Shown in pieces: positions 10,656-57,373 of a stretch of DNA of 64,000 nt. The notes beneath the pieces were generated by a model. That model saw only the letters and a list, made by a program, of their open reading frames with translations. It did not search any database and was not told where the DNA came from. Origin of the DNA: Flexithrix dorotheae DSM 6795 (GTDB lineage: Bacteria > Bacteroidota > Bacteroidia > Cytophagales > Flammeovirgaceae). The stretch is from assembly GCF_000379765.1 (NCBI RefSeq), contig NZ_KB903431.1:1-64000 (forward strand), given 5' to 3'. A program made the translations under genes and the position numbers. The stretch's first letter is position 1, and each line of letters opens with the position of its first letter.

Positions 10656-11180
10656 TTATCCCTTCTTATTTAGATTTATGCCACCATAATAATTTAGATC
10701 AATCTCTTTTTTCAATTTTACAAAATAAGATATTTGCCCGACATGGTAAGAAAAATGCTCGATTACATGAATAATAATACTGAGTTTTGTTTCTCTAAAC
10801 CCTTGTACACCAACCTCCTGTATTAATTCTTCTACTGAAAGATGATTGATTACTTTTGAAACCTGGGACATCACTTTTTCCATGTTTTCTATTAATTCAG
10901 AGGCCGGAATGGGGCCTTTTTCATTAAATTCAGCAGAGCGATTCCTGGTATCCTCAAGTCCGCCAATCCCACTTAAAATATACTGGCTTACATTTCCACA
11001 TAAATGCAATACAAGGTTTCCTACACTATTCGATTCCGAATTAGGTTTGAGCCAGATTTCCTCATCTGTGAGTAAACCAAGACACTTAATCAATCTAGGG
11101 ACAGATTCTGAAAAAATCCTTCGTTTAAACTCTTCAATAATGTTTTGTAAAATGGCCTGGTTTAATGCATCGCTTTTCAT
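10656..11180 (-). CDS. DinB-family (DUF1572-like) putative metal-dependent protein
   Basis: 174 residues, all alpha-helical, about the size of DinB/YfiT four-helix bundles. Histidines sit where the family binds a metal: one in NLVLHLCGN on helix 2 and two in HVIEHFSYHVGQ on helix 4. DinB-like proteins include thiol transferases (bacillithiol and mycothiol S-transferases), but most are uncharacterised. The neighbours give no clue to a substrate. The ATG at 11180 starts just before a helix typical of the family. Confidence 0.75.
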   Translation of the reverse strand: MKSDALNQAILQNIIEEFKRRIFSESVPRLIKCLGLLTDEEIWLKPNSESNSVGNLVLHLCGNVSQYILSGIGGLEDTRNRSAEFNEKGPIPASELIENMEKVMSQVSKVINHLSVEELIQEVGVQGFRETKLSIIIHVIEHFSYHVGQISYFVKLKKEIDLNYYGGINLNKKG

Positions 11181-11283
11181 GAGTGAATTGAATAGGGTAG
11201 AAGATAATTCATGATTTAACTTAAGGTAATTTCTAATTCCATGTAGCTACAGAATTTAAAATAATATACTTTAGAGTTTTTAA

Positions 11284-11322
11284 TAAAAAAAGAGCTGTGA
11301 ATAAATTAAATCCACAGCTCTT
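11284..11322 (-). terminator. Intrinsic terminator downstream of floA
   Basis: A perfect 10-bp stem (AAGAGCTGTG at 11290-11299 against CACAGCTCTT at 11313-11322) with a 13-nt loop. On the minus strand it is followed by a run of Ts (A-run 11284-11290 on the plus strand). It lies 46 bp beyond the floA stop codon and so ends that transcript before the DinB gene. Confidence 0.8.
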
Positions 11323-11367
11323 AGAAAAAATATTTTTTGAATTAGAAAAAAAGGAAGCTTACACTAA

Positions 11368-12357
11368 TTAATCATCATCATCTTTTTTATCTGTTTTTTC
11401 CAACAATGGATCCGCAATAGAATCACGCATGGCTGTATCAGCCTGAATATTTTTCATCTTATAATAATCCATGATACCCAGTTGACCTTCCTTAAATGCA
11501 TGGGCGATTGCCAAAGGAATATCGGCTTCTGCTTCGATTACCTTAGCCCTTGAAGCCTGAGATTTAGCTTTCATTTCCTGCTCTACAGCTACCGCCATAG
11601 CTCTTCTTTCTTCAGCTTTAGCTTCTGCTACCTTTAGATCCGCATTGGCCTGGTCAATTTGAAGCTTTGCCCCAATATTATCTCCAACATCAATGTCGGC
11701 AATATCAATAGATAGAATCTCGAAAGCCGTTCCAGAATCCAGACCTTTTTCCAAAACCAGTTTAGATATTTTATCTGGATTTTCCAATACATCTTTATGC
11801 GAAGTGGATGAACCAATTGAGGTCACAATTCCTTCACCAACCCTTGCCAAAATAGTATCTTCTCCGGCTCCCCCAACCAACTGGGCAATATTTGCTCTTA
11901 CAGTTACCCTGGCCTGTGCTTTTAGTTGAATCCCATCCTGGGCAACAGCTGCTACAATAGGAGTATTAATTACCCTTGGGTTTACAGAAGTTTGAACGGC
12001 CTCAAATACATCCCTACCTGCCAAATCGATGGCGGCAGCCTGTTTAAAGGTAAGTTCTATATTGGCCTTGTCGGCAGAAATTAATGCCTTGATTACAGAA
12101 GGAACATGGCCACCTGCCAGGTAGTGTGTTTCCAAATCAGCTGTGGTTAAAACCAGACCGGCTTTTGTGGAATTTATTAATGATTCCACAATTACCCTTG
12201 GAGGGACTTTCCTCACCCTCATAAATACCAGCTGAAAAAGGCCAACATTTACCCCTGAAAAAATAGCAGTTATCCAAAGGTTTACAGGCACAAAATACAT
12301 GAAGACAAAAAAGCCAACAATGATAAGCGCCAGGTAAATTAAAATAGTAAATTCCAT
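11368..12357 (-). CDS. floA: Flotillin-like protein FloA (SPFH domain)
   Basis: 329 residues, the usual FloA (UPF0365/YqfA) length. The N-terminus has two short hydrophobic segments (about 4-22 and 29-47) forming a membrane hairpin. An SPFH/band-7 domain follows (about 60-220, with the conserved [20 protein letters not shown] stretch), then an Ala/Glu-rich coiled coil (about 225-285). FloA scaffolds functional membrane microdomains and influences membrane fluidity and the assembly of membrane complexes. The acidic KTDKKDDDD tail is notable but of unknown function. It is monocistronic, with its own terminator. Confidence 0.92.
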
Positions 12358-49419: not shown

Positions 49420-50451
<1,032 letters not shown>

Positions 50452-50457
50452 GAATTT

Positions 50458-51606
50458 ATGAATTCCATTCCTTATGGAAGGCAGGATATTTCAGATACTG
50501 ATATAGCTGCCGTAATTGAAACTTTAAAGTCTGACTTTCTTACTCAGGGTCCTAAAATACAGGAATTTGAGGAAGCTTTTGCTCGTTATATTGGTGTAGA
50601 ATATGCCGTTGCTGTTTCTAATGGAACGGCTGCTTTACATTTATGTGCTTTAGCGCTTGGAGTTAATAATCAATCAAAAGTGATTACAACTCCAATCACT
50701 TTTGCAGCTTCTGCTAACTGTATTAAATATTGTGGGGGAGAAGTAACTTTAGTAGATATTGATCCTGAAACGGGATTGATTGATGTTGATAAAGCCAGAA
50801 AGGTTTTAGAACAAGCTGATGAAGGAGAGTATAAAGGAATTATTCCGGTAGATTTTGCCGGGTTGGCTGTAAACCTGGAAGAAGTCAGAAAACTTGCTGA
50901 TGAATATAAACTGTGGATTATTGAGGATGCCTGCCATGCCCCGGGAGGTTATTTTGTGGATGGGAGTGGTGAAAAGCAATTCTGTGGAAATGGTAATTAT
51001 GCAGATTTGGCAATATTTTCTTTTCATCCTGTGAAGCATATTGCAACAGGAGAGGGTGGAATGATTACCACAAACGATCCAGAATTGTATGAAAAACTAT
51101 TATTGCTTCGGACGCATGGTATTACTAAAGATGCTGATCTGCTAAAAGAAAATCATGGCGGTTGGTATTATGAAATGCAGGAGTTAGGATATAATTACAG
51201 GCTTTCAGATATGCAGGCTGCATTGGGTATTACCCAATTGAAAAGAGCAAAAAGCTCTCTGGAAAAGAGGCGTGCAATAGCGCTAAGATATGATAAAGCT
51301 TTTGATGGAACTAATATTTTACCATTAAAGGGAGATGCTGGTCACGCTTATCACTTGTATGTTATTCAGGGGGCAGATAGAAAGGGATTGTACGAGTATT
51401 TAAGAGATAATAAAATCTTTGCTCAGGTACATTATATTCCACTACATTTAATGCCTTTTTACCAGGATCAGGGCTATAAAATTGGGGACTTTCCTATTGC
51501 TGAAGCATATTATAAGAAATGCCTAAGCTTACCCATGTATCCAACATTAACTGAAGAGGAGCAAGATTTTGTGATTGAAAAAGTAAAAGGATTTTATAGT
51601 TTGTGA
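50458..51606 (+). CDS. pseC: UDP-4-amino-4,6-dideoxy-beta-L-AltNAc transaminase, PseC
   Basis: 382 residues of the DegT/DnrJ/EryC1 PLP aminotransferases. The PLP Lys is in FSFHPVKHIATGEGG, with EDACHAPGG (Asp, His) and SNGTAALHL as phosphate-binding turn. It adds the 4-amino group to the PseB product. It starts 6 bp after pseB and ends 3 bp before pseF, a tight operon. Confidence 0.94.
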   Translation: MNSIPYGRQDISDTDIAAVIETLKSDFLTQGPKIQEFEEAFARYIGVEYAVAVSNGTAALHLCALALGVNNQSKVITTPITFAASANCIKYCGGEVTLVDIDPETGLIDVDKARKVLEQADEGEYKGIIPVDFAGLAVNLEEVRKLADEYKLWIIEDACHAPGGYFVDGSGEKQFCGNGNYADLAIFSFHPVKHIATGEGGMITTNDPELYEKLLLLRTHGITKDADLLKENHGGWYYEMQELGYNYRLSDMQAALGITQLKRAKSSLEKRRAIALRYDKAFDGTNILPLKGDAGHAYHLYVIQGADRKGLYEYLRDNKIFAQVHYIPLHLMPFYQDQGYKIGDFPIAEAYYKKCLSLPMYPTLTEEEQDFVIEKVKGFYSL

Positions 51607-51609
51607 AAA

Positions 51610-52377
51610 ATGCAAAATACGGTTATAATTATTCAGGCACGTTTGGGTTCAACCAGGCTCCCAGGAAAAGTTTTGAAACATGTAAATGGAATTCCATTGA
51701 TTAAAAGGGTATTTGATAGATGTTTACAAGTTAAGAAAGCTTCCAAAGTAGTGATTGCTACAACAGAAAATACTTTAGACGATCCACTTGAAGAGTTTTG
51801 TAATGAAAATGATATTTTAGTTTTTAGAGGTAGTGAAGAGGATGTTTTGGATAGATATTTTCAGGTTGGAACAAAATTAAAAGCAACCGCTATTGTAAGA
51901 GTAACAGGAGATTGTCCACTAATTGATCCTGTTGAAATAGATAAATTAATTGAAAAATTTAATGAAGGGAAATGGGATTATATAAGCAATAGCATGCCAT
52001 TAAAATTACCGCATGGATTAGAAGCTAGCATTGGAAGCTTCGAGGCATTTAAAAAATCATGGGAAAAGGCAAATCTTTCTTCTGAAAGAGAACATGTAAC
52101 TCACTATATCCGGACTCATCCGAAATTATTTACAATTGGAGGTGTTGAGTATCAATCTAATTATTCTCATTTACGACTTACTGTAGATTATCAGGAAGAC
52201 TATGATGCTATTAACCAACTATACAAGATTTTGGAAGAAAGAGGTTTGTTTGGGCATTATATGGAAGTTGTGAAAATCCTTGAAGAATTTCCGGAAATAG
52301 CCAAGATAAATGCAAAATTTAAAATCGGAGAAGGACTGAAAAAAAGTATTGAGAATGACAAAACAGTTAGCAATTAG
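51610..52377 (+). CDS. pseF: CMP-pseudaminic acid cytidylyltransferase, PseF
   Basis: 255 residues. QARLGSTRLPGKVL is the CTP-binding signature of SpsF/PseF-type cytidylyltransferases, and RVTGDCPLIDP holds the Mg-binding Asp. It activates pseudaminic acid as CMP-Pse, the last soluble step. It begins 3 bp after pseC and overlaps pseG by 23 bp. Confidence 0.9.
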   Translation: MQNTVIIIQARLGSTRLPGKVLKHVNGIPLIKRVFDRCLQVKKASKVVIATTENTLDDPLEEFCNENDILVFRGSEEDVLDRYFQVGTKLKATAIVRVTGDCPLIDPVEIDKLIEKFNEGKWDYISNSMPLKLPHGLEASIGSFEAFKKSWEKANLSSEREHVTHYIRTHPKLFTIGGVEYQSNYSHLRLTVDYQEDYDAINQLYKILEERGLFGHYMEVVKILEEFPEIAKINAKFKIGEGLKKSIENDKTVSN

Positions 52378-53386
52378 ATTGGACGGTGGTGGCATTTTTG
52401 GTTTTGGTCATGCTAAAAGATGTGTTGCGTTAAGTAAATTTCTTGAAAAAGAATACAATATTAAATCCTATTTTTTTTCTCGATTTAATAAAAATCTGGA
52501 GGAGTTCTATCTAGAAAATAAAGTTGAATATCAATTTTCTTTCAAAAATGATGATTTTGAGGAGGAGGGTTTTATTTATGATATTTTGGAGAAAGGCTAT
52601 AAGGTCTTATTTTTAGATAAATTATTTCCATATTCAGAAGATTTAGTTGAAGCAATTCAAAAAAGATGCAAATTAGTACTTTTTCATAATGATTGTAAAG
52701 GTTTAACTAAAGCTACAAAGGTTATTTTTCCAATTGCACATTTGTCAAGTGAAGTTTTAGAATTAATTAATAGTTTAAGACCTGGACAGGTTTTACATGG
52801 TCCAAAGTACATCCTTCTCAATGAAGAAGTTACTAATTTTAGAAATACAAATTCTGAAAAAAATTATATTGCTATTACTACAGGAGCTAGCGATCCTGAA
52901 GGGGTTATGCTATCTTTATTAAGATGGATTAATGAATCTAACCTGCAACAATCATTTGTTTTTCTTGAAGGTTTTGATCTTGTTCATAAGGTTGAGCTTA
53001 GAGAATATCAGAAAAAACTACGAGAAAATATTACTGTAAAACCTTTTTCATATTCTTTGCTATTTAATAGTTCATTGGTAATTTCCGCTTTTGGAGTTAC
53101 TACTTATGAAGTTATTTATCACAAAATTCCCATATTTACTATTGGACATGCTCTTAATAATGCAATAGCCAGTAAAAATTTAGAAAAAAACTACAGCGTA
53201 AATATTGATTTTGGTTTTTTTAGAGAATTATCTCAAAAAGATTTTATATCAAAATTTGAGAATTTAATAATAAATTCTAACCTGTTTGAATCAATAAAAG
53301 AAAATCAGACAAATTTTGGACTAGATCATCTAGGGATTCACAGGATAGGGAAAGAGGTCGATTTAATCTTCAAAAACTATGAATAA
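52355..53386 (+). CDS. pseG: UDP-sugar hydrolase of pseudaminic acid synthesis, PseG
   Basis: 343 residues from ATG at 52355; a TTG at 52349 also opens the frame. The N-terminal GFGHAKRCVAL holds the G-x-G-H-x-x-R catalytic His typical of PseG. The C-terminal half is GT-B-like (AITTGASDPEG, ISAFGVTTYE). PseG removes UDP from UDP-2,4-diacylamino-trideoxy-beta-L-altropyranose. It overlaps pseF by 23 bp and the MaoC gene by 8 bp. Confidence 0.9.
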   Translation: MTKQLAIRLDGGGIFGFGHAKRCVALSKFLEKEYNIKSYFFSRFNKNLEEFYLENKVEYQFSFKNDDFEEEGFIYDILEKGYKVLFLDKLFPYSEDLVEAIQKRCKLVLFHNDCKGLTKATKVIFPIAHLSSEVLELINSLRPGQVLHGPKYILLNEEVTNFRNTNSEKNYIAITTGASDPEGVMLSLLRWINESNLQQSFVFLEGFDLVHKVELREYQKKLRENITVKPFSYSLLFNSSLVISAFGVTTYEVIYHKIPIFTIGHALNNAIASKNLEKNYSVNIDFGFFRELSQKDFISKFENLIINSNLFESIKENQTNFGLDHLGIHRIGKEVDLIFKNYE

Positions 53387-53864
53387 AATTATTATTGGAA
53401 AAGAGAAGTTTGGAAATTATTATGATGATTTTGAAGTAGGTAGTATTTATAAACATTGGCCAGGAAAAACCATAACTGAAAGTGATAATAACATTTTCTC
53501 TTTGCTTACAATGAATCATCATCCGGTTCACTTGGACGCAAATTTTTGCCAAACACATCAACATAAACAAGTACTGGTTGTAGGTACGCTTGTGTTAAGT
53601 GTTGTAGTTGGTCTTACAGTTTCTGATATAAGCGGAAAAGCTATTGCCAATTTGGAATATGAAAAAATAAACCATGATGGTCCTGTCTTTATAGGAGATA
53701 CTTTATATGCTGAAACATGTATCCTGGATAAAAGACTTTCAAAAAAAAATCCAACCCGAGGAATAATTTATGTCGAAACTATGGCAAGAAATCAGAGGAA
53801 CGAAAAAATTTTAACTTTAAGAAGAAAAGTATTAGTCCCGGTTAGCAATAATGAAAACAAATAG
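53379..53864 (+). CDS. MaoC-family (R)-hydratase, mesaconyl-CoA-hydratase-like
   Basis: 161 residues, one hot-dog domain. The hydratase signature is in TMNHHPVHLDA (His51, Asp53 near it), preceded by TITESDNNIF, the form seen in mesaconyl-CoA/beta-methylmalyl-CoA dehydratases rather than in fatty-acid enoyl hydratases. It would add or remove water from an acyl-CoA. It overlaps pseG by 8 bp and the next gene by 14 bp, so it is truly in the operon. MaoC enzymes have no established role in pseudaminic acid synthesis; a role in making an acyl donor is inferred. Confidence 0.82.
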   Translation: MNKIIIGKEKFGNYYDDFEVGSIYKHWPGKTITESDNNIFSLLTMNHHPVHLDANFCQTHQHKQVLVVGTLVLSVVVGLTVSDISGKAIANLEYEKINHDGPVFIGDTLYAETCILDKRLSKKNPTRGIIYVETMARNQRNEKILTLRRKVLVPVSNNENK

Positions 53865-54660
53865 CCTTCATTTTATTCCTGCAGATAAGCCAGAATTTTT
53901 TGCGAAAACTTCAATGTTACCTGCAAATATTTTTATCTTCGATTTAGAGGATGCTGTGCCAATAAGGAAAAAAGAACTAGCAAGACAAAATATTTTAAAT
54001 TTTTATTTAGAAGGCCAAAACAAAAATGGAAAAAAATATTTTCTTCGAATAAATGAGATTAATAGTGAATTCTTTGAAAGAGATATTGAGTTAGTAAATA
54101 ATGTCCCTTTAGAAGGAATAGTGATTCCAAAATTTAATTTTGGAAGTCAAATGCTCGCCTTTTTGGATAAACTAGATTCAAAATTAAAAATTATTTTAAT
54201 TTTTGAGTCCATTAAGGATTTAATGATTTTGTCATTTTTTGAAAACAAAAATATTCTTGGGGCAGGACTTGGCTTAGAAGATATGTTGTCGAGTTTAACT
54301 TTTTTTCCTACTTTCGATTCAGATTTTTTAATTCAATTGAAAACGAATTTTGTTCTAAAATGTAAAGCTAACGGTTGGGAATGCTTCGATACAGTGTCAA
54401 TGAAATTTGCAGATGAAACTGAACTTTCAAATGAGTGTAATTTTTCAAGAAGGTTAGGCTTTGATGGTAGATTTTCAATTCATCCTAAGCAGATAGATAT
54501 TATCAACTCAGTATATAGTATAAGTGAAGAAGAAATTAATTGGGCTAAAAATATCATAGAAGCCGTAGGTGAAAATTATAATGGAGGTTACCAAAAAGTT
54601 GGAAAACTAATTGTTTCCCCTCCAAAGTATAAAAAAGCTAAATTAATATTAGGGATTTGA
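53851..54660 (+). CDS. CitE-like HpcH/HpaI family lyase or thioesterase (divergent)
   Basis: 269 residues, TIM barrel of the malyl-CoA/citramalyl-CoA lyase family. Conserved: FDLEDAVP (metal Asp/Glu region), FLRINEINS (Arg), a FESIKDLM Glu, GLGLEDM and SIHPKQID. The usual D-G-K-x-I-x-x-P at the C-terminus is degraded to V-G-K-L-I-V-S-P-P. It is shorter and more divergent than its neighbour at 54703. It overlaps the MaoC gene by 14 bp. It may be a thioesterase (like Mcl2) or a malyl-CoA-type lyase; the reaction cannot be told from sequence. Confidence 0.82.
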   Translation: MKTNSLHFIPADKPEFFAKTSMLPANIFIFDLEDAVPIRKKELARQNILNFYLEGQNKNGKKYFLRINEINSEFFERDIELVNNVPLEGIVIPKFNFGSQMLAFLDKLDSKLKIILIFESIKDLMILSFFENKNILGAGLGLEDMLSSLTFFPTFDSDFLIQLKTNFVLKCKANGWECFDTVSMKFADETELSNECNFSRRLGFDGRFSIHPKQIDIINSVYSISEEEINWAKNIIEAVGENYNGGYQKVGKLIVSPPKYKKAKLILGI

Positions 54661-54702
54661 GTGAATTTAGATATATACTATTGAAAATAAACCAATTAAT
54701 TA

Positions 54703-55584
54703 ATGAATTATAGTTTAAGAACTATGTTTTTTGTCCCCAGTTATATGACAAAATTCCTGGAAAAAGCTACAACCTTGGAGGCTGATGCATTGATTCTGGA
54801 CTTAGAAGACTCTGTTCCTAATGAGAATAAACCTGAAGCTAGAGAAAATATTAAAAATTTTTTAGATCGTGATGCCTTTAAGCAAAAAGTGTTTATCCGG
54901 GTAAATTCTATAGATTCCAATTTATTATCGGAGGATTTAAAGTGGACTATCCATGAAAATACTGATGGGTTTATGTTTACCAAGATTCAAAATGAGCAGG
55001 ATATTTTTTATTTTGATAAACTGTTATTACAATTGGAGGCTGATAATGGTTTTCCTGAAGGGAAATTTAAAATGTGTCCACTTATTGAAACTGCTGAAGC
55101 TGTTTTAAGAGCATACGAAATTGGAATTTCATCAAAAAGAATGATTGGGTTGGCATTTGGAGGAGAAGACTATTTAAGAGATTTAGATGGACTCCACAAA
55201 GAGCATGGCACAAGTTTATTAGTTCCCCGATCAAATATTGTAATAGCTGCCAGGGCTGCAAAAATAGAACCTATTGATACTCCTTATCTGGATATTCATG
55301 ATTTAAAAGGATTTAAAAATGAAGTGGAATTAGCCAGAGAGTTAGGCTTTTCTGGATCACTCACGATTCATCCTAGTCAATTGAAAATTGCTAATAAAGC
55401 ATTTTCTCCTTCAGACCTTGAAATTGAGGAAGCCGAAAGAATTATTGCAGCTATAAAAGAAAGTGAAAAAAAGGGGATGGGAGTTACTCTGTTAGATGGA
55501 AAACTTATAGGGCCACCAATGCAGAAAAGAGCGGAAAGTGTGTTGAAAAAAGTTGAAAAAATAAAAAGGAATGGAGTTGACTAA
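54703..55584 (+). CDS. CitE-like malyl/beta-methylmalyl-CoA lyase family protein
   Basis: 293 residues with all CitE-family motifs: LDLEDSVP, FIRVNSIDS (Arg), CPLIETAEAV (Glu), AFGGEDYLRDL (metal Glu-Asp), LTIHPSQ and LLDGKLIGPP. This is the canonical member of the pair and probably catalyses reversible aldol cleavage of a malyl-CoA-like thioester. It follows the first CitE gene by 42 bp and precedes the acyltransferase by 70 bp. With the MaoC gene the trio recalls mesaconyl-CoA hydratase plus the Mcl1/Mcl2 pair of the ethylmalonyl-CoA pathway. Confidence 0.85.
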   Translation: MNYSLRTMFFVPSYMTKFLEKATTLEADALILDLEDSVPNENKPEARENIKNFLDRDAFKQKVFIRVNSIDSNLLSEDLKWTIHENTDGFMFTKIQNEQDIFYFDKLLLQLEADNGFPEGKFKMCPLIETAEAVLRAYEIGISSKRMIGLAFGGEDYLRDLDGLHKEHGTSLLVPRSNIVIAARAAKIEPIDTPYLDIHDLKGFKNEVELARELGFSGSLTIHPSQLKIANKAFSPSDLEIEEAERIIAAIKESEKKGMGVTLLDGKLIGPPMQKRAESVLKKVEKIKRNGVD

Positions 55585-55654
55585 ATGGTAAGTTAGTAAT
55601 TGGACGAAAAGTTAGCAGATGAATTAGTTAATTATAATCAAAAATTAAAATTAA

Positions 55655-56311
55655 ATGAAAAAATTAATCATAATGGGGGGGATGGGTAATGGAAGTGTAG
55701 TAGCGTCAACGGTGGAGGATATTAATATGGTTAATAAGGAATGGGAAATATTAGGATTTTTAAATGATTTTGAGACTGAACCAATAAATAGCTATCCCAT
55801 TCTTGGGAAAATCACAAAAGAGGAAGTTGAAAAATTTATTTCTGATCCTGATGTATACTTTTTTTATGCTTTAATTTCAGTGAAGTTAAATCATAAGTTT
55901 TTATCCAAATTACTAGATCTTGAGATTCCTGATGAGAAATTTGCCACAGTAATTCATCCAACCGCAGTTGTTTCAAAGTCTGCGAGAATTGGTCATGGGG
56001 TTTGTATTCAGCCATTTGTTAGCGTTGGACCAAATGTGGTTATAAATAATCACATACAAATTTTTGGACAATCTCTAATTGGTCATAATGCAATTCTCAA
56101 AAATTATAGTTATGTAGCGAATAATGCTTGTATTGGAGCTTCTTTAGTATTGGATGAGGGAGCCTACTTAGGAACGAATTGTACAACAATTGAAAATATT
56201 AGAATAGGGAAATGGGCTGTTGTGGGTATGGGAAGTGTTATAATTAAGAGTGTTGAAGATTATGCTAAAGTGGTTGGGAATCCAGGTCGGGTAATTGGAT
56301 CAACTAAATAA
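55655..56311 (+). CDS. NeuD/PglD-like left-handed beta-helix sugar acyltransferase
   Basis: 218 residues. The N-terminal Rossmann-like nucleotide-sugar domain begins KKLIIMGGMGNGSVV, where most NeuD/PglD proteins have a G-x-G-G-H-x-x-x-V motif. The C-terminal left-handed beta-helix (about 95-215) has many hexapeptide turns, with a probable catalytic His in LIGHNAIL and the final VVGNPGRVIG. PglD acetylates a 4-amino nucleotide sugar; NeuD acetylates sialic acid. As no PseH is visible, this may acylate the amino sugar of the Pse path, or the finished nonulosonate. Confidence 0.86.
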   Translation: MKKLIIMGGMGNGSVVASTVEDINMVNKEWEILGFLNDFETEPINSYPILGKITKEEVEKFISDPDVYFFYALISVKLNHKFLSKLLDLEIPDEKFATVIHPTAVVSKSARIGHGVCIQPFVSVGPNVVINNHIQIFGQSLIGHNAILKNYSYVANNACIGASLVLDEGAYLGTNCTTIENIRIGKWAVVGMGSVIIKSVEDYAKVVGNPGRVIGSTK

Positions 56312-56323
56312 CAAAACATATAA

Positions 56324-57373
56324 ATGGGATTTTTTATAGGGAAAAATAAAATCGATAATAGCCTTCCCGAGGTTTATATTATTGCAGAGTTATCAGCAAA
56401 CCATAATGGCCAATATGAAATTGCTGCAAGGACTATTGAGGCTATGAAAAATTCAGGAGCCAATGCAGTGAAATTTCAGACTTATAAACCAGAAAGTATG
56501 GTTTTAGATTTGGATGATCCCAAATTTAAAGCAAGGAAGGGCACTATTTGGGAAGGGACAAAACTATTTGATTTATACAAAGAAGGGGCAATGCCTTACG
56601 AATGGCAGAAAAAACTGAAAAAAGTTGCTGAAAACCTAGGAATGGATTGTTTTTCAAGCCCTTTTGACCAGGAAGGAGTAGATTTTTTAGAAAGTATCAA
56701 TGTACCTGCTTATAAAATAGCCTCCTTGGAGATTACTGATATTCCTTTAATAAAATATGCTGCAAGTAAAGGTAAACCAATTATTCTATCAAGTGGTATT
56801 TCTACAATTTCGGATATTCATTTAGCTTTAGATACAATTAGAAAAGAAGGGAATGAGGATATTGCTGTTCTTAAATGCACATCTGCCTATCCAACACCAT
56901 TGGAAGAGGTAAATCTTAACACTATTCCAAATATAAAAGATACGTTTAATGTAATTCCTGGTTTATCAGATCATACTTTAGGTATAAGTGTACCTGTTGG
57001 TGCAGTGGCCTTAGGGGCAAAAATAATAGAAAAACATTTTATTCTGGATAAGAATTTGGGGGGAATTGATTCAAATTTTTCATTAGATCCTCAAGAGTTT
57101 AAAATGATGGTTAATTCTGTAAGAGAAACAGAAAAAGCTCTTGGAGAAATTAATTATAATCTTACTGAAAAAATGAAAGGTGCCCGAGGGTCGGCAAGGT
57201 CATTATTCTTTGTGAAGAATATCAAAAAAGGGGAAAAAATTGAATCAAATCATATTAAAAGTTTGAGGCCAAATCTTGGAATTCATCCACAGTTTTTTGA
57301 TGAGATTATTGGGAAAAAGGCAAATATAGATATAAATGAAGGTACTCCTGTAAGTTGGGAAATTTTAAACTAA
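56324..57373 (+). CDS. pseI: Pseudaminic acid synthase, PseI
   Basis: 349 residues. NeuB-type TIM barrel with the PseI-typical IAELSANHNGQ start, FQTYKPESM, SSPFDQEGVDFLE and SDHTLGISVPVGAVALGA with the EKHF metal-site strand. A C-terminal SAF/antifreeze-like domain follows (about 290-349). It condenses the 2,4-diacylamino-altrose with PEP. It begins 12 bp after the acyltransferase gene. The SANHN form favours Pse over sialic or legionaminic synthases. Confidence 0.94.
   Translation: MGFFIGKNKIDNSLPEVYIIAELSANHNGQYEIAARTIEAMKNSGANAVKFQTYKPESMVLDLDDPKFKARKGTIWEGTKLFDLYKEGAMPYEWQKKLKKVAENLGMDCFSSPFDQEGVDFLESINVPAYKIASLEITDIPLIKYAASKGKPIILSSGISTISDIHLALDTIRKEGNEDIAVLKCTSAYPTPLEEVNLNTIPNIKDTFNVIPGLSDHTLGISVPVGAVALGAKIIEKHFILDKNLGGIDSNFSLDPQEFKMMVNSVRETEKALGEINYNLTEKMKGARGSARSLFFVKNIKKGEKIESNHIKSLRPNLGIHPQFFDEIIGKKANIDINEGTPVSWEILN

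Follow-up and report, generated by a model that had tools for sequence, protein, structure and literature searches.

The canonical operon for pseudaminic acid (Pse) encodes PseB-C-H-G-I-F, with the GNAT-family enzyme PseH at the N-acylation step. The 64,000-nucleotide stretch of the Flexithrix dorotheae DSM 6795 genome analysed here (contig NZ_KB903431.1, positions 1 to 64,000; hereafter the window) contains a Pse operon that has every step of this pathway except acylation; in the place of PseH it carries a cassette of coenzyme A (CoA) enzymes, comprising one MaoC-type protein and two CitE-type proteins (CitE1 and CitE2), and a NeuD-type acyltransferase. We consider it likely that the cassette makes a non-acetyl acyl-CoA and that NeuD, replacing PseH, transfers the acyl group to the 4-amine of the Pse precursor, which is N-7 of Pse. 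These data partly support an earlier note on the window, which had proposed that such a module provides the acyl group of an undescribed nonulosonic acid.

Several known systems share features with this arrangement. In the anthrose genes antA-D, an enoyl-CoA hydratase gene lies beside aminotransferase and acyltransferase genes, and together they provide a 4-amino sugar with its N-acyl group; however, AntA is a crotonase-type hydratase, there is no CitE and the sugar differs from Pse. The set of malyl-CoA lyase, mesaconyl-CoA hydratase and thioesterase likewise combines a MaoC protein with two CitE paralogues. In Flavobacterium psychrophilum, the accessible text describes the O-antigen R-group genes wfpC-wfpG as a strain-variable set beside a PglD-homologous acyltransferase, predicted to give a 3,5-dihydroxyhexanoyl group N-linked to a nucleotide-linked 4-amino sugar, with other PglD homologues in other strains (PMC6519341). 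There too a gene set makes, and a PglD-type enzyme attaches, a non-acetyl N-acyl group, but as described that system uses an acyl carrier protein and ketoacyl synthases of the fatty-acid-synthesis type, whereas the window has CitE and MaoC, no acyl carrier protein and a Pse precursor. Pse5Am7Gra of Tannerella forsythia is a Pse derivative with an unusual, non-acetyl group at N-7; the available portion of that report mentions no glyceroyl genes, CitE or MaoC (PMC6388019). The N-acyl groups of a Shewanella polysaccharide are reported to vary with growth medium, in a source that, in its accessible parts, contradicts itself on malate in Flavobacterium (subject index and one sentence versus section 3.2), about which we make no claim (PMC3210612). 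A 2026 report on Clostridium Pse, in its accessible text, assigns N-acylation to PseH, which it recognises by an acetyltransferase domain (PMC13317340). Among the search results inspected in open-licence PubMed Central, no title or abstract opening named a CitE/MaoC gene set for sugar N-acylation and, as far as these tell, the cassette, its pairing with varied acyltransferases, its place in PseH-less Pse operons and its CitE2 with glycine at the lid are new.

A Pse operon with acyl-CoA genes in the place of PseH

The operon comprises nine genes on the forward (+) strand:

49435..50451, +, PseB, UDP-GlcNAc (uridine diphosphate N-acetylglucosamine) 4,6-dehydratase (inverting); TIGR03589 533 bits, above cut-off
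50458..51606, +, PseC, UDP-4-amino-4,6-dideoxy-AltNAc (N-acetylaltrosamine) aminotransferase; TIGR03588 468 bits, above cut-off
51610..52377, +, KdsB-like cytidylyltransferase in the PseF position; CTP_transf_3, with KdsB as best subfamily
52349..53386, +, PseG, UDP-sugar hydrolase without a GNAT domain; TIGR03590 75 bits, cut-off 153.6
53379..53864, +, MaoC-type protein, apparently a dicarboxyl-CoA hydratase/dehydratase (RipB/Mch-like, Asn/His motif); family matches, Asn46/His51
53851..54660, +, CitE1, divergent CitE-type protein with Ser at the lid; family matches, AlphaFold2 model
54703..55584, +, CitE2, CitE/malyl-CoA-lyase fold with lid Asp changed to Gly270; family matches, alignment, AlphaFold2 model
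55655..56311, +, NeuD/PglD-type left-handed beta-helix acyltransferase of a Pse-specific clade, proposed PseH substitute; TIGR03570 146 bits, tree
56324..57373, +, PseI, pseudaminic acid synthase; TIGR03586 472 bits, above cut-off

PseB, PseC and PseI passed their curated models, and the four genes between pseG and pseI lie where the earlier note had placed them, in the same operon context and with the same overlaps (8 bp between PseG and MaoC, 14 bp between MaoC and CitE1). Domain searches agreed with its gene labels, with the caveats that PseG scores below its cut-off and that the protein called PseF, which reaches only 21 bits with the PseF model (cut-off 205.7), is KdsB-like instead, so that its label rests on position. 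Relatives of this cytidylyltransferase (51610-52377) at 34–39% identity occur in 7 of 20 other Pse loci. RfbA and epimerase genes upstream in the window indicate that another nucleotide sugar is made nearby.

Between pseB and pseI, domain and model searches recognised no acyltransferase other than NeuD. NeuD matches TIGR03570 (NeuD_NnaD) over residues 3–212, short of the subfamily cut-off of 161 bits, and its best PDB relative is VioB. Gly143-His144 is invariant in 10 sequences, and we take His144 to be the catalytic histidine.

The gene set recurs in Pse operons of other genera

The same gene set was found in Pse operons of two other genera of the order. Locus L053 (genome G698) reads PseB-PseC-cytidylyltransferase-CitE1-MaoC-CitE2-NeuD-PseG-PseI, and L057 (G837), located through its NeuD, has the same order; the third gene of each has no match to the window PseF and is called a cytidylyltransferase from its N-terminus only. 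With the window, the cassette is thus present within Pse operons of three genera. Because the same set occupies two further Pse operons, its composition is more than chance, contrary to the lack of conserved association that the earlier note had named as grounds for giving up its proposal.

The NeuD proteins of the three operons form one clade (support 100/99); that of the window is 69% and 66% identical to those of L053 and L057, and 31–41% identical to seven other cassette NeuDs. NeuD very probably stands in for PseH. The earlier claim that NeuD acylates an amino sugar fits its position as the sole acyltransferase recognised in the operon, and its Pse-specific clade is consistent with a Pse precursor as the substrate. 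Alternatively, NeuD could be a plain N-acetyltransferase that replaces PseH, with the MaoC–CitE block serving some other acylation (on another amino sugar within the same glycan, or as an O-acyl group). PglD/NeuD relatives are mostly annotated as acetyltransferases, the upstream RfbA and epimerase genes mark another nucleotide sugar, and NeuD-type proteins are also found without the cassette. However, inside the L053 and L057 operons the cassette directly precedes a NeuD of the same clade, 7 of 9 other cassette NeuDs lie directly after CitE2 (one gene intervenes in L043 and L052), and the window offers no second recognised acyltransferase between pseB and pseI, making this alternative unlikely.

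GNAT-less Pse loci and the cassette

A PseH-type GNAT profile built from other Pse loci had no match at E<=10 among the window's open reading frames (ORFs) of at least 60 aa, in line with the earlier reading that the operon lacks a GNAT-type PseH, and the Pse operons of L053 and L057 likewise had no match at that threshold. For comparison, 213 genomes of the order were searched for PseI; 49 of them, the window's own included, had it above cut-off, at a total of 50 places. We sampled 21 Pse loci without the cassette, namely 20 hand-chosen places, spread over genera and away from contig ends, and the locus of G012, which alone among the other genomes searched belongs to the window's genus; both PseB and PseC were recognised in 17 of the 20 chosen places. 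A GNAT was found in 20 of the 21, of which 19 contributed to the profile and so match it by construction (L077, at 38 bits, lies outside the profile). GNAT-less Pse loci therefore numbered 3/3 with the cassette versus 1/21 without it (p = 0.002, relatedness ignored), so that the lack of a GNAT in the locus tracks the cassette, a correlation the earlier note had proposed to check.

Other features of the sampled loci were also observed. In 10 of the 21 (L060, L063, L064, L066, L067, L068, L071, L074, L075 and L078) the GNAT forms the C-terminal portion of a protein of 480-502 aa, the PseG half being confirmed in L060 only. At L061:6671-9089, a Pse locus encodes a class-III aminotransferase together with a pair of GNATs, of which one exceeds the PseH cut-off. 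In the window's own genome, contig 36 (294222-295181, L080) encodes a second NeuB-type synthase, which scores 215 bits with the PseI model (cut-off 340).

A genome-wide search with the PseH model TIGR03585 found nothing above the cut-off of 93.1 bits in the own genome (9.5 Mb, 101 contigs), with 7 weak matches. We dropped this search as proof of absence, as PseH-type proteins in other Pse loci score 23-51 bits (for example, 33, 48 and 51), others reaching 144-160, and true locus PseHs thus also fall under the cut-off; for this reason the locus-level test described above and a broader profile were adopted. With the broader profile, the best GNATs genome-wide scored 58.7 bits in the own genome (G000), 41.5 in G698 and 51.3 in G837, and the locus PseHs of G516, G012 and G546 scored 118-184 bits (that of G516 being outside the profile).

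These scores bear on a second alternative, in which NeuD and the cassette-derived acyl group modify Pse after or beside normal acetylation, for example as an O-acyl group or a replaced N-5 group, and PseH is a GNAT encoded elsewhere. The own genome does encode several GNATs, the best of which, about 410 kb from the operon, is the 58.7-bit protein. That score, however, is at the level of generic GNATs in the control genomes G183 and G516 (56-58 bits), and the GNAT lies inside the locus in 20 of the 21 other Pse loci. We regard this alternative as improbable. The earlier note had said that a PseH gene elsewhere in the genome, together with a glycan bearing acetyl groups alone, would contradict its own proposal; of such a gene, the search gave only GNATs at background level.

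A rare cassette beside different acyltransferases

The cassette is rare and scattered. MaoC at E<=1e-25 was found in 3 of 390 genomes of the order (own, G546 and G698). Of 18 genomes searched in the family, the own one alone had CitE1. NeuD at E<=1e-60 occurred solely in the own genome among 395 sampled from the phylum, and at E<=1e-40 in 2 of 245 genomes of G698's family. Searching 395 genomes of the phylum with MaoC gave 26 matches at E<=1e-15, 8 of them (own plus 7) at least 52% identical, and a scan of genome contigs revealed four contigs of metagenome-assembled genomes with CitE2 at 57-68% identity, from Delongbacteria, Flavobacteriales, Marinilabiliaceae and Ekhidna. No useful relatives were found for CitE1 in genome contigs, nor in a DNA-level search of E. 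coli genomes, and CitE2 and NeuD searches of plasmids returned only 12 citrate-lyase-type records (33-37%) and 3 Lawsonia records (32%).

All seven close MaoC relatives from the phylum search (L040-L046) adjoin a CitE2. CitE1 lies upstream in 5/7, a NeuD (31-40% identical) is present in 6/7 and, within the stretch covered, a DegT aminotransferase in 6/7; L041 has no NeuD match, with a formyltransferase and a hexapeptide protein nearby. L052 (G546) carries the same cassette type, and in total the MaoC–CitE block adjoins NeuD-type proteins in 10 loci. In L036, L037 and L038 it is instead an AAC(3)-type protein (Antibiotic_NAT) that comes after CitE2, and in L037, L038 and L039 the gene product before MaoC is of the Wzx type; the L039 stretch ends inside the gene after the cassette, and no MaoC match was found in the part of L036 covered. 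CitE1 is present in the window and in 11 of 14 other cassette loci, and was not found adjoining the cassettes of L038, L043 and L045. DegT aminotransferases occur in 9 of the 10 non-AAC(3) cassette loci besides the window, and 13/13 close MaoC relatives adjoin acyltransferase or flippase genes of polysaccharide clusters. Outside Pse operons, the block thus recurs in other polysaccharide clusters, with distant NeuDs (31–41% identical) or an unrelated AAC(3)-type acyltransferase. The sharing of a single set of CoA enzymes by acyltransferases of different folds suggests that what these loci have in common is an acyl-CoA product, and the MaoC–CitE block quite probably supplies the acyl donor of NeuD.

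NeuD itself was rejected as a cassette marker, as at 31-35% identity it also stands alone (L095-L098, 4/4 without a CitE or MaoC match within <=1.5 kb on each side). Among neighbouring genes, DUF7033 proteins adjoin AAC(3)-type cassettes (L037:11784-13160 and L038:6704-8092), two WbmS-like (polysaccharide deacetylase) proteins adjoin the cassette of L041 (L041:8148-8834 and 11027-11755), and the single genes separating CitE2 from NeuD are L043:8367-9065 (WbqC-family) and L052:8321-9022.

Enzymes of the cassette

MaoC matches MaoC_dehydratas and MC_hydratase, and its Asn46 and His51 are invariant in 14 cassette MaoCs. The same Asn is present in an annotated RipB (L092) and in 4e3e, a PDB MaoC-domain relative of mesaconyl-CoA hydratase, at a position where the hydratase-2 motif has Asp. 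By these residues MaoC looks like a dicarboxyl-CoA hydratase/dehydratase, and the mesaconyl-CoA-hydratase-like motif reported earlier was recovered. The MaoC family alone is unspecific, because RipB-type relatives are frequent in other contexts too (a plasmid search gave 334 records, the best 50% identical; two regions inspected).

The likeness to itaconate degradation (RipB/RipC, or Ich/Ccl) raises the alternative that the block serves itaconate or mesaconate catabolism and is in the operon by accident. RipB/Ich is the best NCBIfam model, and the best full-length one, for MaoC, RipB shares the Asn/His motif, and RipC is matched by both CitE proteins and is among their best models. However, the scores fall far below the equivalog cut-offs (145 bits against 340 for MaoC; 103 and 144 against 375 for CitE1 and CitE2), no CoA-transferase was found in the operon in the ORF list or by domain search, CitE2 has lost a lid Asp that the CitE beside the annotated ripB of L092 keeps, and the close MaoC relatives uniformly sit in polysaccharide clusters. 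We consider this alternative highly improbable.

Both CitE proteins match HpcH_HpaI, CitE and RipC, with a best-model score of 103 bits for CitE1 versus 223 for CitE2. CitE2 has the TIM barrel with lid, the Mg-binding Glu and Asp and the substrate Arg, and R66, E129, D156, E35-D36 and G270-P-P are invariant in 15 cassette CitE2s. Its AlphaFold2 model (predicted local distance difference test score, pLDDT, 91) is nearest to malyl-CoA lyases along its entire length (Z 37.1 and 36.2, 287-289 residues), but Gly270 is aligned with Asp299 of Rhodobacter malyl-CoA lyase (numbering assumes a 21-residue tag). The authors of the Rhodobacter study presume a first-step role for Asp299 and, in its accessible text, report that it is conserved superfamily-wide, Glu replacing it in the cluster of malyl-CoA thioesterases (PMC3832036). 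At this lid position we found Gly in 15/15 cassette CitE2s and Asp in 9/9 non-cassette CitEs (L047-L049, L092 and L099-L103); L047-L049, with a MaoC at 39-41% identity, served as outgroup, and in 20 kb there none of the window's sugar genes found a counterpart. CitE1, modelled with a complete barrel and lid hairpin (pLDDT 89), has at the lid position Glu in 8 of 12 cassette CitE1s, as in malyl-CoA thioesterase, and Ser or Thr in the other 4; the window is one of these, and its Ser aligns next to an insertion of one residue. These residues were read by eye except in two rows. The earlier assignment of the two proteins as malyl/beta-methylmalyl-CoA lyase and malyl-CoA thioesterase was therefore not borne out, as CitE2 has Gly rather than Asp and CitE1 Ser rather than Glu.

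Judged by its residues, CitE2 is an odd lyase. Lid complementation, in which CitE1 would bring its lid acid into the CitE2 barrel, suits the eight cassettes with a Glu-bearing CitE1; we did not adopt it, as the residue is Ser or Thr in four others (the window, L036, L037 and L039) and no CitE1 was found next to the cassettes of L038, L043 and L045. A more far-reaching idea, which we rate as a long shot, is that cassette CitE2s represent a new catalytic type in the CitE superfamily, which, having lost the enolising lid Asp, would obtain a nucleophile for example through decarboxylation of malonyl- or methylmalonyl-CoA for reaction with an alpha-keto acid. The dicarboxylic acyl-CoA so made would go into an N-acyl nonulosonic acid of an undescribed kind and, at the other sites where the cassette is inserted, into further amino sugars. 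The decarboxylative route to a carbon nucleophile is a guess.

A chimeric cassette in the window

The window's cassette is a natural chimera, with a NeuD of the Pse clade and CitEs of the AAC(3)-type clade. In the CitE2 tree, a grouping of the window with L053 and L057 was rejected (approximately unbiased test, p-AU 8e-79) and the window protein fell with L036-L039 (support 71/87, or 83/94 omitting L038). CitE1 of the window grouped with L036, L037 and L039 (100/100), and the MaoC tree was mostly unresolved. Gene order is MaoC-CitE1-CitE2 in the window, L037 and L039, and CitE1-MaoC-CitE2 in L053, L057, L052 and the five CitE1-bearing loci among L040-L046. In the simplest history, a Pse operon with a Pse-specific NeuD would have acquired its acyl-CoA genes from a cassette of the AAC(3) type. 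Members of a single NeuD clade adjoin blocks of both types, which suggests identical or similar acyl-CoA products.

Proposed pathway and implications

We propose that MaoC-CitE1-CitE2 is a portable cassette that would produce a short non-acetyl acyl-CoA for amino-sugar N-acylation. CitE-type bond formation would join a CoA ester with glyoxylate or pyruvate, and MaoC would set the hydroxy versus unsaturated form, giving malyl-, citramalyl-, fumaryl-, mesaconyl- or itaconyl-CoA. NeuD would then transfer this acyl to the 4-amine of the sugar made by PseB and PseC, a step carried out elsewhere by PseH with acetyl-CoA, and PseG, PseI and the cytidylyltransferase would yield the cytidine monophosphate (CMP)-linked pseudaminic acid with a non-acetyl group at N-7. 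A hydroxy- or unsaturated dicarboxylic group of the C4/C5 type is our tentative suggestion for the acyl. In malyl-CoA-type lyases the thioester carbon derives from the acetyl unit, so a malyl-CoA-type product would give a 4-linked malyl group. A 4-linked malyl group is reported for Vibrio vulnificus in the accessible text of PMC3210612.

Several observations weigh against this pathway. All 15 cassette CitE2s are without the presumed catalytic lid Asp, and lyase-type C–C chemistry is thus not assured. The AAC(3)-type loci showed no aminotransferase in the stretch covered, and the occurrence of NeuD-type proteins at about 33% identity without the cassette (L095-L098) means that NeuD could be a plain acetyltransferase. 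One Pse locus without the cassette, L073, is also GNAT-less; a formyltransferase-like gene in the GNAT position there (L073:10562-11194) suggests a possible N-formyl Pse. Finally, the locus GNAT of G183 scores just 38.6 bits, below the 58.7-bit GNAT of the own genome, and since a genuine locus GNAT can score so low, a remote PseH elsewhere is still conceivable.

The Asp-to-Gly change throughout the cassette CitE2s raises a question for enzymology. A MaoC-CitE(-CitE) block accompanied by an acyltransferase of the NeuD or AAC(3) type may serve as a genomic marker for N-acyl sugars of unknown biosynthesis, for which the N-malyl sugars of marine bacteria are candidates. If the proposed pathway is correct, bacteria would modify a mimic of sialic acid through the exchange of one step, replacing acetylation by a GNAT with transfer of a cassette-made acyl group.

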